From: Comamonas sp. NLF-1-9
GTDB lineage: Bacteria > Pseudomonadota > Gammaproteobacteria > Burkholderiales > Burkholderiaceae_C
Direction: 5' to 3'
Assembly: GCF_019195435.1 (NCBI RefSeq)
Contig: NZ_CP078069.1
Location: forward strand, 372,001-436,000
DNA: 64,000 bases
The translations under genes were made by a program, and so were the position numbers. The notes beneath the pieces were generated by a model that saw only the letters and a program-made list of their open reading frames with translations, ran no database searches and was not told the DNA's origin. Of the stretch, positions 37,964 to 43,597 are shown one piece after another. The stretch's first letter is position 1. Each line of letters begins with the position of its first letter.

Positions 37964-38557
37964 TCAGATCACGCTGCGCAGCTGGCCGCTCGGGCCGGGC
38001 AGGCCGGCTTCCTGCACCAGCTCCTGCAGCAGTCTTGCCGGGTCGCTGCCGGTGCGCACCAGCCGCATCTGCCAGTCGCTCATCAGGCCGTCGTCCACCG
38101 CCTGCTGCAGGAAGGCGAGCATCTTCGCGTAATAGCCGCCGGCGTCGAGCACGCCCACCGGCTTGTCGTGGTAGCCCAGCTGGCGCCAGGTCCAGATCTC
38201 GAACAGCTCTTCCAGCGTGCCTATGCCGCCGGGCAAGGCCAGGAAGGCGTCGCTGCGCTCGGCCATCATGGCCTTGCGCTCGTGCATGGTCGCGACGATG
38301 TGCAGCTCGTCGCAGGCGTGGTTGGCCAGCTCCTTGTTGACCAGCGCCTGCGGGATGACGCCCACTACTCGCCCGCCCGCCGCGCGCGTGGCCTGCGCCA
38401 GCACGCCCATGAGGCCGCTGTTGCCGCCGCCGTAGACGAGCTGGCCCTGGTGCTCGCCTATCCAGCGGCCCACCTGCTGCGCCGCTTCGGCAAACAGCGG
38501 CCTGTTGCCCGGGCGCGAACCCAGGTAGACGCAAAGGGAAAACGCCACTTCAGCCAT
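37964..38557 (-). CDS. LOG family protein (TIGR00730)
   Basis: The 197-residue Rossmann-like product has the LOG signature LPGGIGTLEELFEIWTW and VYGGGNSGLMG. LOG proteins are nucleoside-monophosphate phosphoribohydrolases that can release cytokinin bases. Their role in non-plant bacteria is unclear. It is the last gene of the sigma-factor operon and its start overlaps the dgkA end by 8 bp. It converges with glnB. Confidence 0.9.
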   Translation of the reverse strand: MAEVAFSLCVYLGSRPGNRPLFAEAAQQVGRWIGEHQGQLVYGGGNSGLMGVLAQATRAAGGRVVGVIPQALVNKELANHACDELHIVATMHERKAMMAERSDAFLALPGGIGTLEELFEIWTWRQLGYHDKPVGVLDAGGYYAKMLAFLQQAVDDGLMSDWQMRLVRTGSDPARLLQELVQEAGLPGPSGQLRSVI

Positions 38558-38939
38558 GGGAGAAAAACCGGTGGTACAGCGCCAGCGCCCAGACGGCGCC
38601 GGCCAGCAGCAGCGACAGCAGCACCGCAGCGCTGCCCAGATCCTTGGCGCGCGCGGACAGCGGGTGCAGCTCGGGCCCGATGCGATCGATCGCCGTCTCT
38701 ATGCCCGAATTGAGCAGCTCCACGATCAGCACCAGCACGACGCTGGCCCAGAGCAGCGCAAGCTGCAGCCAGTCGCTGGCCAGCCAGCAGGCTGCGGGCA
38801 GCATCAGCAAGGCAAGAACGGCTTCCTGGCGAAAGGCCTTTTCCGCCCAGGCTGCGCGCAGGCCCGCGAGCGAATAGCCGGTGGCGTGCCAGAGCCGGAC
38901 CAGGCCGCTGCGGCGCTTGTGCGGGTGGACGTCGCTCAT
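38550..38939 (-). CDS. dgkA: Diacylglycerol kinase
   Basis: DgkA is a small integral-membrane kinase that phosphorylates diacylglycerol, recycling lipid from membrane-derived oligosaccharide or LPS modification. The 129-residue product has AWAEKAFRQE, the signature VELLNSGIETAIDRIGPE and three hydrophobic helices. Its start overlaps the RDD stop (ATGA). Its place in the operon links phospholipid turnover to the upstream sigma factor. Confidence 0.95.
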   Translation of the reverse strand: MSDVHPHKRRSGLVRLWHATGYSLAGLRAAWAEKAFRQEAVLALLMLPAACWLASDWLQLALLWASVVLVLIVELLNSGIETAIDRIGPELHPLSARAKDLGSAAVLLSLLLAGAVWALALYHRFFSHG

Positions 38940-39487
38940 GGCTTGCGGCGCGCCGGCGCGGGGCGCGTGTCGTGGATCAGGCGCGTGCCGGCAAGCTGGT
39001 CGTGCCAGAACTGCTGCTGCGGATGCAGGCGGCTTGCCAGCGCCCAGAGCACGATCCACAGCAGCAGCAGGGCCAGCGTGCTGAACAGCGGCAGACCGAG
39101 CTGGTGCGCGGCCAGCGGCGGCAGGAACCACAGCCAGGCCAGCAGATAGCGCAGCAGCGCGCGCGGCTGGCTGAGCGCGCGCCCCCGGGCATCGACCACG
39201 CGAATGTGCCAGGTCTTTTGCGCCAGGGTCTGGCCGCGCGACCAGAACCAGCCGAAATAGATGCCGAAGACGACGAACAGATAGCCCATGCGCAGCGCGC
39301 GGTTGGCCAGGCCGTGGCGCGATTGGCTCAGGGTGTCAAACAGATAGTCGGCAATGAATACCAGGCCGAAGAGCAAGATGGCTTCGTACAGCCAGCAAGC
39401 CATGCGCCGCCACAGCGCGGGGGCTTGCAGGCTCGCCTCGGCCAGCGGTGCGGCGACGGGGGAGGAGGGCGGCGTCGCGGCGCTCAT
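38936..39487 (-). CDS. RDD family membrane protein
   Basis: The 183-residue product has four or so hydrophobic helices and RDD-like segments: PALWRRMACWLYEAILLFG, GQTLAQKTWHIRVVD and FWHDQLAGTRLI. The first signature Arg-Asp-Asp motif is weak (RRMACWLYEA). RDD proteins are proposed transporters or membrane chaperones. It overlaps DUF3106 upstream and dgkA downstream by ATGA. Confidence 0.87.
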   Translation of the reverse strand: MSAATPPSSPVAAPLAEASLQAPALWRRMACWLYEAILLFGLVFIADYLFDTLSQSRHGLANRALRMGYLFVVFGIYFGWFWSRGQTLAQKTWHIRVVDARGRALSQPRALLRYLLAWLWFLPPLAAHQLGLPLFSTLALLLLWIVLWALASRLHPQQQFWHDQLAGTRLIHDTRPAPARRKP

Positions 39488-40476
39488 GGCTCGGTGCGGC
39501 GCGGGCTGAGGTTGCCCGCGTCCGGCGTCGGCGCGGGGCTTGGCGCCGGCGCGGAGCTTGGCACCGGTTCTGGCGTCGGCGCCGGCTCCACCGGCATGGG
39601 CGAGGCTTCACCGGCCGCCGGGCTCAAGCTGGGCGCGGGCAGATCGCCCGTCAGCGGACTGAGCGGTTTGTCCGGCATTGGCGGCGCGGCGGGCGGCGCG
39701 GCTGCAGGCGTGCTGCCCAGTGGCGGCAGATCGGTGCCGGTGGCCGAGGGGATGCTTACCGGCGCGGTCTCCACCGGCGCCGCTTCAGGCGGGCGCACTA
39801 CTGGTACCGGCACCATGTCCACCACCGGCGGCAGGATCTTGGGCGGATTGGCGCTTGCGGGCGTCTTGCTCTCTGCCGCGGGTACGCGCACGAACTTGTT
39901 TGCCGGCGCGGGGCGCACCGCGATCGCCGCCCCCTGCGGCGCGGGCGCCGCCCGCTCGATCAAGGCCTGGCGCGCTTCAGGTGCCAGGGCCTGGTAGGCG
40001 TCCCATTGCTCCTGGCGCGCCGGCGGCGCGAGCTTGCGCGTGGCCGCAAAGTTCAGCCGGGCGCGGTTGCGCTCCTGCGGGGTCAGCGCGGCCCAGGCGG
40101 TCATGCGCGCCTGCAGCCGCTTCTGGCTGGACGGCGTCAGCGTGGCAAAACCGTCGGCGATCGACAGCCATTTGCGCTTTTGCGCTTCGGTCAGCGTGCT
40201 CCAGTGCGGCTGCAGCGGCTCCAGCGCCTGCTGCTGCGCCCTGCCCAGGCTGAGCCAGGGCGGGCCGGATTCTTCGACGACCGGGGCGGGCCGGCGCGCG
40301 GGGAGCATGGCCGCGGGCGCCGGTTTGCTCACCGGCATGACCACGCCCGGCAACGCCCTGACCTGGCGCGCCGCCAGCCAGCCGGCCCACGCGAGCGCGA
40401 CGCACAACGCCAGAGTCAGAACGAGGGCGATGAGCGATAGCGGGCGGGAAGGCTGGCTGGCGGGCGGTGCTGGCAT
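39484..40476 (-). CDS. DUF3106 protein: membrane-anchored, LTxxQ-like periplasmic repeats
   Basis: The 330-residue product has an N-terminal membrane anchor (about 13-33). From 74 to 172 it has six imperfect repeats about 18 residues apart: LSLGRAQQQAL, STLTEAQKRKWL, ATLTPSSQKRLQ, AALTPQERNRARL, RKLAPPARQEQW and QALAPEARQAL. These look like the LTxxQ motifs of CpxP and Spy. The rest is a long Pro/Ala-rich tail, probably periplasmic. Function is not known. It lies 30 bp after DUF3619 and overlaps RDD by ATGA, so a sensory or chaperone role in the sigma circuit is inferred. Confidence 0.83.
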   Translation of the reverse strand: MPAPPASQPSRPLSLIALVLTLALCVALAWAGWLAARQVRALPGVVMPVSKPAPAAMLPARRPAPVVEESGPPWLSLGRAQQQALEPLQPHWSTLTEAQKRKWLSIADGFATLTPSSQKRLQARMTAWAALTPQERNRARLNFAATRKLAPPARQEQWDAYQALAPEARQALIERAAPAPQGAAIAVRPAPANKFVRVPAAESKTPASANPPKILPPVVDMVPVPVVRPPEAAPVETAPVSIPSATGTDLPPLGSTPAAAPPAAPPMPDKPLSPLTGDLPAPSLSPAAGEASPMPVEPAPTPEPVPSSAPAPSPAPTPDAGNLSPRRTEP

Positions 40477-40506
40477 TGCGTCAGCGCCGGGCAGAACGTC
40501 TGGGCA

Positions 40507-40953
40507 TCAGGGTTTGCTGCGGCTGGATTTGAGGAATTGTGCAAAGCCCGGATCCGCATAGGCGGAGGGCGGGAGCTCGTCTGTGAGCAGGGCGGTGTCG
40601 ATCTCGGTGAGCTCGCTCGTGGTGTTTTCCACCTGCGTATGGTGCACCAGCACCAGGCCGATCAGCAGCGCGACGATCCAGACCACGGACAGCGCCGGCT
40701 GCCACCAGTGCGAAGGCGCGCCGCCGCCGAGCGTGGCCGCCGGCCCTTGGGCGAGCACGGCGGGCGCGCTGCGCCAGTGCAGCGCCGGCTGCGTCGCCGG
40801 GCGCTTGCGCTCGGCCAGCGCCTGCAGGCGCGCCACGCGCAGGCGTTCGCTGATGTCGTGGTGCAGCTCGTCGCTGGCCTGCGTCAGGCGCAGGGCAACG
40901 CGGCGCGCGAAGGCGTCCGCTTCGGGGCTGAGCGTGGCAGTGGTCTGGTTCAT
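40507..40953 (-). CDS. DUF3619 protein, candidate anti-sigma factor
   Basis: The 148-residue product has a charged N-terminal cytoplasmic region (about 1-60), one membrane helix (about 86-104) and a short C-terminal periplasmic tail. That topology, and the 4-bp overlap with the sigma-factor gene (ATGA), are typical of anti-sigma factors such as RseA. No zinc anti-sigma motif is present. The anti-sigma role is inferred from context only. Confidence 0.82.
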   Translation of the reverse strand: MNQTTATLSPEADAFARRVALRLTQASDELHHDISERLRVARLQALAERKRPATQPALHWRSAPAVLAQGPAATLGGGAPSHWWQPALSVVWIVALLIGLVLVHHTQVENTTSELTEIDTALLTDELPPSAYADPGFAQFLKSSRSKP

Positions 40954-41525
40954 GGCGTGATTCCTTGGGCCTTGAGCATCTTGCCCAGGGCCTGAACGGC
41001 ACGAAAACAGTGCGTTTTTACACTGCCTTCAGAGCATCCCATGGCGGCTGCGGTTTCTGCAACATCCATTTCTTCCCAGTAACGCATCAGAAAAGCCTCG
41101 CGTTGACGGGTCGGAAGCTGCTCGATCGCCGCTTCGATGGCTTGCACCGTCTGGCTTCGCCGCAGCGAATCTTCCGCGCTCTGGGCGCCGGCGCCGGCGC
41201 CGTCCTGGGGCGCCAGCCAGGTCTCGAGCAGGTCGAAATCCTGCCCATCGTCGGACGGGCCTTCAAAGTCGCTGAGGTTGGTGAACAGCGCCTTGCGCGT
41301 CTTTTGCCGGCGAAACCAGTCCAGCATGCAGTTGGAGAGGATGCGCTGAAACAGCATGGGCAGCTCGGCCGGCGGCTTGTCGCCGTAGTGCACCGACAGC
41401 TTGAGCATGCTGTCTTGCACGATGTCCAGCGCCGCCTCCTCGTCACGCACGTGGTAGAGCGCACGCTTGAAGGCGCGCCTTTCCGTGTTCTTGAGGAAAT
41501 CGGAGAGCTCTTGTTCTGTGGCCAA
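40950..41525 (-). CDS. ECF-type RNA polymerase sigma factor (probable TTG start)
   Basis: The 191-residue product has sigma region 2 (FKRALYHVRDEEAALDIVQDSM, seen in part as HVRDEEAALDIVQDSM, then LFQRILSNCMLDWFRRQK) and region 4 (LPTRQREAFLMRYWEEMDVA, then MGCSEGSVKTHCFRAVQAL). It lacks regions 1 and 3. From memory, relatives begin MATEQELSDFL. Here that position is a TTG at 41525; the only upstream ATG (41627) adds 34 residues unlike the family. It heads the DUF3619/DUF3106/RDD/dgkA/LOG operon. Confidence 0.9.
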   Translation of the reverse strand: MATEQELSDFLKNTERRAFKRALYHVRDEEAALDIVQDSMLKLSVHYGDKPPAELPMLFQRILSNCMLDWFRRQKTRKALFTNLSDFEGPSDDGQDFDLLETWLAPQDGAGAGAQSAEDSLRRSQTVQAIEAAIEQLPTRQREAFLMRYWEEMDVAETAAAMGCSEGSVKTHCFRAVQALGKMLKAQGITP

Positions 41526-41620
41526 GGAAGGGGGTTCCCGCGGGCGCCAGGGGCACGGCGGCGGCGCATGCTGCACCGCGACAGCGGCGATTATCCCATC
41601 GTGTTGTCTTTTGGCTCCAT

Positions 41621-41776
41621 TTGCCACAAGCCGATGTTGCGGTGCAATAATGCGAGCCTACTTGTTACGAAGCAAACGGGTCCCGGTCGGGCGCGAACCT
41701 GTCGACGCCCATGGCCGAGGCCTCAAGTCCCAACGCAGCCTCACGAGGGCTCGTCCGAGGGGCACCCTAGGTTTTT
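41621..41776 (+). promoter_or_regulatory. ilvB promoter and possible leader attenuator
   Basis: A likely -10 AATAAT (41646-41651) has TTGCCA 19 bp upstream. In the leader, CCTCACGA/TCGT..GAGG (41739-41760) can form one stem. CC-AGGG/CCCT-GG (41755-41771) followed by TTTTT can form a terminator-like hairpin. The two share bases 41755-41760, so they are mutually exclusive. No leader peptide rich in Ile, Leu or Val codons is apparent. Confidence 0.4.
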
Positions 41777-41803
41777 CGTCAGAGAAATTCGCAAAGGTTG
41801 AAC

Positions 41804-43597
41804 ATGGAAATCTCCAAGGCCGAAATGGCAAAGGCGGCTGCGGCCGTCCAGGGCAGTGCGGGTGCGTCCGGCGCGCCGCAGGAGTTGATGGGCGCCGAGA
41901 TCCTCATTCGCGCGCTGCAGGCCGAGGGCGTGCGCCACCTCTGGGGCTACCCCGGCGGCGCGGTGCTCTACATCTACGACGAGCTGTACAAGCAGGACGT
42001 GATCGAACACGTGCTGGTGCGCCACGAACAGGCGGCGGTGCATGCGGCCGACGGCTATGCGCGCGCCACCGGCGACGTCGGCGTGGCCCTGGTCACCTCC
42101 GGCCCGGGCCTGACCAATGCGGTCACCGGCATCGCCACGGCCTACATGGACTCCATCCCCATGGTGGTGCTGGCCGGGCAGGTGCCGACGGCCGCGATCG
42201 GGCTGGACGCCTTCCAGGAGTGCGACACCGTGGGCATCACGCGCCCGGTGGTCAAGCACAACTTCCTGGTCAAGGACGTGCGCGACCTGGCGCTGACCAT
42301 CAAGAAGGCATTTCACATCGCGCGCACCGGCCGGCCCGGCCCGGTGGTGGTCGACATCCCCAAGGACGTCTCGCTGAACAAGACGCTGTACTCCGGCTAC
42401 CCCGAGACGGTGGAGATGCGCTCCTACAACCCGGTCAAGAAGGGGCACCCGGGGCAGATCCGCAAGGCGCTGCAACTGCTGCTGTCGGCCAAGCGCCCCT
42501 ACATCTATACCGGCGGCGGGGTGTTGCTGGGCAATGCCTGCCAGGAGCTGCGCACGCTGGTCGATCTGCTGGGCTACCCGGTCACGCACACGCTGATGGG
42601 TCTCGGGGCCTATCCGGCGAGCGACCGCAAGTTCGTCGGCATGCTGGGCATGCACGGCACCTACGAGGCCAACAACGCGATGCAGAACTGCGACGTGCTC
42701 TTGGCCGTGGGCGCGCGCTTTGACGACCGCGTGATCGGCAACACCAAGCACTTTGCCCAGCGCGACCGCAAGATCATTCACATCGACATCGACCCGTCGA
42801 GCATCTCCAAGCGCGTGCGCGTGGACGTGCCCATCGTGGGCGACGTCAAGGAAGTGCTGGGCGAGCTCATCAGCCAGGTGCGCGAAGCGAGCACCAAGCC
42901 CGACGCCCAGGCGCTGGCCGCATGGTGGAAGCAGATCGAGGAGTGGCGCGGGCGCGACTGCCTGGCCTACGACCGCGGCAACACCGAGGTCATCAAGCCG
43001 CAGTTCGTGGTCGAGACGCTGTGGAACATGACCCGCGGCGCCGATGCCTACATCACCTCCGACGTCGGCCAGCACCAGATGTGGGCCGCGCAGTACTACC
43101 ACTTCGACGAGCCGCGCCGCTGGATCAACTCGGGCGGCCTTGGCACCATGGGCGTGGGCATTCCCTACGCCATGGGCATCAAGCTGGCCAAGCCCGACTC
43201 CGAAGTGTTCTGCATTACCGGCGAGGGCTCGGTGCAGATGAACATCCAGGAGCTCTCCACCTGCCTGCAGTACGACACGCCGATCAAGATCGTCGCGCTG
43301 AACAACCGCTACCTGGGCATGGTGCGCCAATGGCAGGAGATCCAGTACGCCGGGCGCTACAGCCAGACCTACATGGATGCGCTGCCCAACTTCGTCAAGC
43401 TCGCCGAGGCCTATGGCCACGTCGGTTTGCTGGTGGAGCGCCCGCAGGACGTGGAAGGCGCGCTGCGCGAAGCGCGCCGGCTCAAGGACCGCACGGTGTT
43501 TCTGGACATCCGCACCGACCCTACGGAAAACGTCTTTCCCATGGTGCAGCCGGGCAAGGGCATCACGGAAATGCTGCTGGGTTCCGAAGACCTTTGA
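41804..43597 (+). CDS. ilvB: Acetolactate synthase large (catalytic) subunit
   Basis: This thiamine-diphosphate and FAD enzyme makes acetolactate, the first common step of Val, Leu and Ile synthesis. The 597-residue product has GYPGGAVLYIYDEL, the TPP-activating Glu in VRHEQAAVHAADGYAR, SGPGLTNAVTGIATAYMDS and the TPP motif ITGEGSVQMNIQELST. The ATG at 41804 has AAAGG 6 nt upstream. It leads an ilvB-ilvH-ilvC order. Confidence 0.97.
   Translation: MEISKAEMAKAAAAVQGSAGASGAPQELMGAEILIRALQAEGVRHLWGYPGGAVLYIYDELYKQDVIEHVLVRHEQAAVHAADGYARATGDVGVALVTSGPGLTNAVTGIATAYMDSIPMVVLAGQVPTAAIGLDAFQECDTVGITRPVVKHNFLVKDVRDLALTIKKAFHIARTGRPGPVVVDIPKDVSLNKTLYSGYPETVEMRSYNPVKKGHPGQIRKALQLLLSAKRPYIYTGGGVLLGNACQELRTLVDLLGYPVTHTLMGLGAYPASDRKFVGMLGMHGTYEANNAMQNCDVLLAVGARFDDRVIGNTKHFAQRDRKIIHIDIDPSSISKRVRVDVPIVGDVKEVLGELISQVREASTKPDAQALAAWWKQIEEWRGRDCLAYDRGNTEVIKPQFVVETLWNMTRGADAYITSDVGQHQMWAAQYYHFDEPRRWINSGGLGTMGVGIPYAMGIKLAKPDSEVFCITGEGSVQMNIQELSTCLQYDTPIKIVALNNRYLGMVRQWQEIQYAGRYSQTYMDALPNFVKLAEAYGHVGLLVERPQDVEGALREARRLKDRTVFLDIRTDPTENVFPMVQPGKGITEMLLGSEDL

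Follow-up and report, generated by a model that had tools for sequence, protein, structure and literature searches.

In the CnrYXH system of Cupriavidus metallidurans the periplasmic sensor is CnrX, and the regulon of RpoE, another extracytoplasmic function (ECF) sigma factor, has envelope-protein targets. With such systems we compared a row of six genes of Comamonas sp. NLF-1-9, located on the minus strand at positions 37964 to 41525 of a 64,000-nucleotide stretch of DNA (contig NZ_CP078069.1, positions 372,001 to 436,000; the whole stretch is called the window below), whose first three genes encode an ECF-type sigma factor, a DUF3619 protein and a DUF3106 protein. For CnrYXH, the passages of two papers that concern it give the gene order cnrYXH and describe CnrYX as a membrane-bound anti-sigma complex (PMC9045368), with CnrY laying two helices on sigma4 and sigma2 (PMC7406223). 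In our analysis the first three genes of the row are likely to be a conserved envelope-sensing ECF module with DUF3619 as the anti-sigma factor, and the RDD, DgkA and LOG genes behind them to be riders. The literature that we searched, the main ECF classification (10.1093/nar/gkaa1229) aside, has no mention of DUF3619, DUF3106, PRK09047, PF11304 or PF12279; a numbered ECF group for this sigma factor may exist.

Conservation of the first three genes

The first gene (40950..41525, minus strand; 191 aa) passes the NF006550/PRK09047 model with 263.7 bits at a curated cut-off of 173, in agreement with the original prediction of an ECF-like sigma factor; its Pfam regions are Sigma70_r4_2 (E 2e-19) and Sigma70_r2 (E 2e-4; 21.4 bits, slightly below the cut-off of 24). 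The second gene (40507..40953, minus strand; 148 aa) reaches 4 bp into the sigma gene and encodes a DUF3619 protein (PF12279; 124.2 bits, gathering cut-off 22.2), and the third (39484..40476, minus strand; 330 aa), which follows after a 30-bp gap, encodes a DUF3106 protein (PF11304; 102.2 bits, gathering cut-off 24.3). The coordinates and the Pfam and NCBIfam matches bear out the predicted row of six overlapping or nearly touching minus-strand genes, the junctions sigma/DUF3619, DUF3106/RDD and RDD/DgkA overlapping by 4 bp each and DgkA/LOG by 8 bp. The sigma gene starts at 41525 with TTG, the commonest start in its relatives (123 of 178 placed starts, from 293 sigma genes). This start may hold its translation low.

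In a sample of 100 Burkholderiales genomes (51 families, 70 genera) matches over the cut-off were found for the sigma factor in 72, for DUF3619 in 69 and for DUF3106 in 71. All 69 genomes having DUF3619 carry its gene next to the sigma gene on the same strand, and all 28 genomes without an over-cut-off sigma factor are also without DUF3619. DUF3106 lies at most 2 kb downstream of the sigma gene in 70 of the 71 genomes with a match; the sole exception is G043, whose DUF3106 match is weak and which does not have this sigma factor. The Fisher tests of these associations do not correct for phylogeny. A DUF3106 match was not found in G004 and G063, and a DUF3619 match was not found in G001, G096 and G004; weak DUF3619-like genes stand next to the sigma gene in G001 (E 8e-8) and G004 (E 1e-4) when these loci are read individually. 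In a larger sample DUF3619 is present in 285 of 399 genomes, its adjacency to the sigma gene having been checked for part of them. Synteny across Burkholderiales was the point at which the prediction could fail, if the genes were not kept together; this objection does not hold for the first three. The conserved unit is the ECF sigma factor, DUF3619 and DUF3106. One contig labelled as a metagenome-assembled genome of Desulfobulbaceae (L031) includes a sigma gene with 78% identity to that of the window and is probably misbinned.

The unit was also found outside Burkholderiales. Among 229 genomes of the class (two of them the window's own genome and a family member), DUF3106 passes the cut-off in 63 and DUF3619, mostly by its N-terminal part, in 18. 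The class genomes with DUF3106 over the cut-off that do not belong to Burkholderiales number 61, and 52 of these were read. In a first set of 40 gamma DUF3106 loci from 36 families, 39 have a same-strand sigma gene upstream, a presence conditional on DUF3106 because the loci were chosen for having it; in these 39 the profile detects a DUF3619-like gene in 34, and reading by eye adds two (L117, L123). Of twenty later loci, seven of them from families already in the first set, 17 have the sigma gene and 14 a DUF3619-like gene. Three of the later loci belong to a family outside the class (f233): two carry the sigma gene, a DUF3619-like gene, DUF3106 and the promoter motif described below, and one is without a detected sigma gene. 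In a phylum sample DUF3106 passes the cut-off in 27 of 299 genomes. Profile comparison with hhalign relates beta and gamma DUF3619 over their length (96.9%, E 1.6e-10), and likewise the beta and gamma DUF3106 domains (99.3%). The 4-bp sigma/DUF3619 overlap is kept by 76 of the window's 80 near relatives, by 140 of the 161 loci from other Burkholderiales and by 21 of the 34 gamma loci; thirteen re-fetched loci were left out of the overlap, RDD and upstream-motif counts and kept for the recognition-helix identity. The only locus of the first set without the sigma gene (L152) is apparently decaying and keeps a fragment of the DUF3619 tail, a small secreted gene and DUF3106.

Promoter motif and candidate regulon

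Upstream regions of the gamma loci have in common the ECF-type motif GTCAACC-N15/16-CGTT. The pattern GTCAAC-N15..18-CG[AT]T occurs at most 400 bp from the sigma gene in 24 or 25 of 39 gamma loci. When the region is widened to 1.3 kb, 37 of the 39 have it, versus 0.33 expected from a Markov model and 2 when the reverse strand is scanned; the sites farther out can have another gene between them and the sigma gene. In the later set the motif is present in 15 of the 17 loci with a sigma gene, namely in 9 of 11 in families new to the analysis and in 6 of 6 in families of the first set; a reverse-strand site occurs in one locus. The recognition helix of the gamma sigma factors has a mean identity of 78% to that of the window sigma factor, compared with 38% overall. 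From the position of the sites and the conserved recognition helix we infer that this sigma factor recognises the motif.

To identify candidate targets, 30 of 69 motif sites of 16 gamma genomes were read downstream, and among them were a DUF4382-type lipoprotein gene (in four genomes), an RLDR-repeat gene and two genes of glycine-zipper-like lipoproteins, all named by eye. A secreted RLDRxGDR-repeat protein is encoded upstream of the sigma gene, behind the motif, in 7 of 40 gamma loci (L112, L116, L119, L122, L123, L125 and L127), and another stands behind the motif in L298. In L125 the RLDRxGDR repeats are in frame with the second half of the sigma factor, which may be a fusion or an assembly fault. 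A search for the DUF4382 family, which one paper, on archaea, mentions, gave 18 genes in 11 of 40 genomes; it left out G151, G174, G216 and G224, where the motif had already found the lipoprotein. With the subfamily profile built from one sequence, one subfamily of DUF4382 lipoproteins has the motif upstream in all eight of its members that were seen. Four of the eight were found independently of the motif: three have strict motifs and one the form GTCAACGG, and three lie inside the sigma locus; the site of L358 was missed by the automatic upstream scan and is present in the locus. The 14 other DUF4382 genes have a single loose match, about 0.4 kb upstream (L348). These observations suggest an autoregulated envelope regulon outside Burkholderiales, the output of which in those bacteria is likely to consist of envelope lipoproteins and secreted repeat proteins.

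Several points weigh against this interpretation or narrow it. The 1.3-kb window was picked when the result of the 400-bp scan was known. The motif is absent upstream of the window operon and in all 80 near relatives, and only 4 of 161 other Burkholderiales loci have it; the shared promoter motif that the original prediction proposed to look for thus exists before the operon outside Burkholderiales and is missing in the window and its near relatives, so that the window sigma factor is without an ECF-type promoter before its own operon, a feature common in ECF sigma factors and not required of them. The window's genome shows no enrichment of the motif (16 sites versus 31 for reversed-pattern controls), and neither do the 16 gamma genomes for a stricter motif (69 sites versus 89 for controls). 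Therefore, the regulon is at best a small one, and none is seen in Comamonas sp. NLF-1-9.

Eight Burkholderiales genomes contain 46 motif sites, and by eye the 30 of these read downstream gave no recurring target family besides sigma genes; sites before sigma genes are those of G331, G421 and G519 among the ones read, and that of G061 by the upstream scan. One site of the window's genome (G000:C1:195395-195421, L325) lies 41 bp before a gene for a secreted c-type cytochrome, named by eye, and may be due to chance. One 25-mer resembling the motif has three identical copies in the same genome (L332, L337, L339), presumably in ribosomal RNA operons.

Upstream of the window sigma gene there is instead an extended -10 sigma70-like element (TGGGATAAT; 41590..41598, minus strand), which was seen by eye also in 45 of 80 near relatives. 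ATAAT is present upstream of the sigma gene in 76 of 80 near relatives (9.3 when shuffled), and the region between the sigma gene and ilvB (41590-41800) holds ATTAT in 79 of 80, which suggests putative back-to-back sigma70 promoters. The divergent gene, ilvB (41798-43597, plus strand), encodes the acetolactate synthase 3 catalytic subunit (NF005409, 1195 bits, cut-off 1035); of 100 loci checked, 94 carry a relative (79 among the 80 near relatives, 15 among the 20 other Burkholderiales), each time on the strand opposite to the sigma gene. As here, Rmet_0910 (RpoR) of C. metallidurans presumably lies beside ilv genes, and we take it as a possible ortholog by its neighbourhood. Passages on an rpoQ rpoR double mutant link it to copper and thiol homeostasis (PMC13192273, PMC11022561), and the orthology is not decided by passages on ECF factors and on C. 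metallidurans sigma factors in these two papers and in PMC8999054, PMC8103513, PMC2864759, PMC9045368, PMC11647585, PMC11647595 and PMC3384475.

DUF3106 as a periplasmic repeat protein

The window DUF3106 is a membrane-anchored periplasmic protein with a proline-rich tail and a helical domain with W-xx-L-T/S-P repeats (39958..40257, minus strand). It had been credited with six LTxxQ-like repeats similar to the motifs of CpxP and Spy; six loose matches are indeed present, only one of them being an exact LTxxQ. Over 289 homologues each protein has on average 3.2 copies of the loose motif (1.1 in shuffled sequences), 0.81 of the exact LTxxQ (0.04) and 2.5 of [WYF]xx[LM][TSPAG][PE] (0.05). PF07813, the LTXXQ family of CpxP and Spy, does not match the window DUF3106 at E up to 0.1, and it is absent among the best 25 of 27 and 25 of 107 families listed for 51 beta and 31 gamma DUF3106 proteins, respectively. 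The fold comparison with Foldseek gave no match at E <= 0.001.

DUF3106 could be the output of the system rather than its sensor, a Spy/CpxP-like chaperone or a hydrophilic filler made from the operon of the sigma factor, DUF3619 alone sensing the stress. We regard this as a serious possibility that still falls short of probable, since DUF3106 is almost never found away from the sigma gene in the Burkholderiales sample, and the membrane anchor of the window protein, in an operon without an ECF-type promoter, is more in keeping with a regulator that is always present than with a chaperone made on induction.

Between DUF3619 and DUF3106, 23 of 40 gamma loci encode by pattern a small secreted protein of 65-122 aa with the motif LEFLGxFxxxDGxWxDP (for example L130, 2834-3103, minus strand; L119, 2088-2360; L120; L124). 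No credible Pfam family was found in the 17 members scanned.

DUF3619 as a probable membrane anti-sigma factor

Comparison of loci and sequences supports DUF3619 as a probable membrane anti-sigma factor. Like such factors, it is encoded with the sigma factor and lost with it, and it has the predicted single-pass topology with the N-terminus inside: charge and hydropathy give N-in/C-out for 287 of 288 homologues, in line with the anti-sigma topology claimed for it at the outset. The transmembrane segment of the window protein was placed by hydropathy and charge at residues ~84-106 (40636..40704, minus strand). It is followed by a periplasmic tail with the motif DxxLLxDxLPxxAYxDxGFxxFL (residues 119-141; 40531..40599, minus strand), which in a profile comparison reads like DIELLxxxxxLELYEDLEFYEWL in the gamma proteins. 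AlphaFold2, run with 63 near-relative sequences (mean predicted local distance difference test, pLDDT, 73; predicted template modelling score, pTM, 0.27), predicts well two cytoplasmic helices at residues 10-29 and 32-49 (block-mean pLDDT 87-91 over residues 11-50), which are the candidate sigma-binding part (residues 10-49; 40807..40926, minus strand); beyond residue 49 the model has a poorly predicted linker, the membrane helix and a short C-terminal helix. Two cytoplasmic helices in a model of this pTM do not make a class I anti-sigma domain (ASDI), and the window DUF3619 contains no cysteine and therefore no Hx3Cx2C zinc motif. The helix count of this model would fit class II, the CnrY type, in which two helices wrap sigma4 and sigma2.

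Other results speak against this role. DUF3619 has no sequence or fold match to a solved anti-sigma factor and no sequence match to a CnrY chain; its fold comparison gave no confident match, known anti-sigma families gave no match above noise, and solved structures searched by the DUF3619 and DUF3106 profiles gave nothing credible. Mean-field direct coupling analysis (DCA) of the sigma factor and DUF3619 (282 of 288 pairs after the coverage filter; effective number, Meff, 180) has its top pair at sigma 45 and DUF3619 48 with z 7.3, near the expected known interface by hand mapping only, and the controls are equal or stronger: in pairs above z 5 DUF3106 equals DUF3619 as a partner of the sigma factor and RDD exceeds it, and the contact-pattern test is no better than for the controls.

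The absence of coevolution above controls and of matches to anti-sigma families or structures, as well as the sigma70-like element before the window sigma gene, would also agree with DUF3619 being a membrane anchor for DUF3106 without anti-sigma function, the sigma factor being controlled by transcription alone. This is unlikely, as it is the sigma gene itself with which DUF3619 overlaps and is lost, and as G063 has the sigma factor and DUF3619 without a detected DUF3106, and G004 its weak DUF3619 relative next to the sigma gene, likewise without a detected DUF3106. A sigma gene under positive autoregulation would moreover be unstable when free of an inhibitor, which weighs against a mere anchor.

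RDD, DgkA and LOG genes

The remaining three genes, all on the minus strand, encode an RDD family membrane protein (PF06271; 38936..39487; 57 bits, cut-off 24), a diacylglycerol kinase family protein, DgkA (PF01219, DAGK_prokar; 38550..38939; 107 bits, cut-off 22), and a LOG/TIGR00730 family protein (37964..38557; 192 bits, cut-off 96), which at 166 bits stays below the cut-off of 300 for the cytokinin-phosphoribohydrolase equivalog. Of the near relatives, 76 of 80 have RDD, as have 138 of 161 other Burkholderiales loci, many of which end short downstream; it was found in none of 39 gamma loci. Among the 80 near relatives, 60 have DgkA and 68 have LOG; when only the 68 loci extending 3.5 kb past the sigma gene are counted, 54 have the former and 63 the latter. 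Neither was found in 20 other Burkholderiales loci (5.9-7.5 kb) or in 40 gamma loci. The three genes seem to have been appended later to the conserved gene row. Because RDD was seen only in beta loci, and DgkA and LOG only in near relatives, the lipid-recycling output that had been proposed is unsupported, and of the statement that the last genes act on membranes and lipids, the LOG family models bear out neither part.

That all six genes are one unit with lipid or membrane maintenance as its output, as the tight overlaps in the window and the regular company of DgkA and LOG in near relatives might suggest, is highly improbable given this distribution and LOG family models that do not indicate lipids.

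Proposed mechanism

The layout of sigma factor, anti-sigma factor and periplasmic repeat protein contained in the original prediction is supported by comparison, through synteny, co-loss, topology, the two-helix cytoplasmic part and, outside Burkholderiales, the promoter motif, the lipid-recycling output being dropped. In the module that we propose, the two N-terminal cytoplasmic helices of DUF3619 would hold the sigma factor, its single transmembrane helix would span the membrane, and the receiving end would be its conserved tail in the periplasm (DxxLLxxxLPxxAYxDxGFxxFL). DUF3106 would act on this tail, either as a sensor that releases it when the envelope is damaged or as a regulated chaperone that exerts feedback. 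The freed sigma factor would recognise GTCAACC-N15/16-CGTT, and outside Burkholderiales its targets would be its own operon and some genes of envelope lipoproteins or secreted proteins. In the window lineage the self-promoter is absent, a sigma70-like element stands before the sigma gene, and RDD, DgkA and LOG would be riders and not the defining output.

A broader interpretation, to which we give slightly less than an even chance, is that of a widespread unnamed envelope-stress pathway of proteobacteria, in which DUF3619 is a new anti-sigma family whose tail (LxxY-DLDFY-WL) is read by DUF3106, and outside Burkholderiales also by the LEFLG protein, and in which a tiny lipoprotein regulon is transcribed from GTCAACC-N15/16-CGTT; Burkholderiales would have rewired it beside ilvB with loss of autoregulation. 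If true, this would assign roles to DUF3619 and DUF3106, both families of unknown function, predict the inhibitor and the promoter of an ECF factor that occurs in many proteobacterial families, together with its first targets, and provide an example of a pathway kept while its wiring changed.

Comparison with known systems

DUF3106 resembles CpxP and Spy as a helical periplasmic protein with LTxxQ-like repeats, and differs from them in that the window protein has no PF07813 match. RpoE-RseA and other class I pairs are similar in that a membrane anti-sigma factor is encoded beside an ECF sigma factor and, outside Burkholderiales, an ECF-type promoter stands before the operon, the envelope targets of RpoE being a further likeness; the DUF3619 model differs from class I in having two, not four, cytoplasmic helices, and the protein in having no Hx3Cx2C. 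Unlike in CnrYXH, the sigma gene comes first here, there is no metal gene in the row, and DUF3619 and DUF3106 have no detected sequence relation to solved chains. What the locus shares with CnrYXH of C. metallidurans, as that system is described in the passages cited above, is an ECF sigma factor encoded together with a short two-helix candidate anti-sigma factor and a periplasmic partner.

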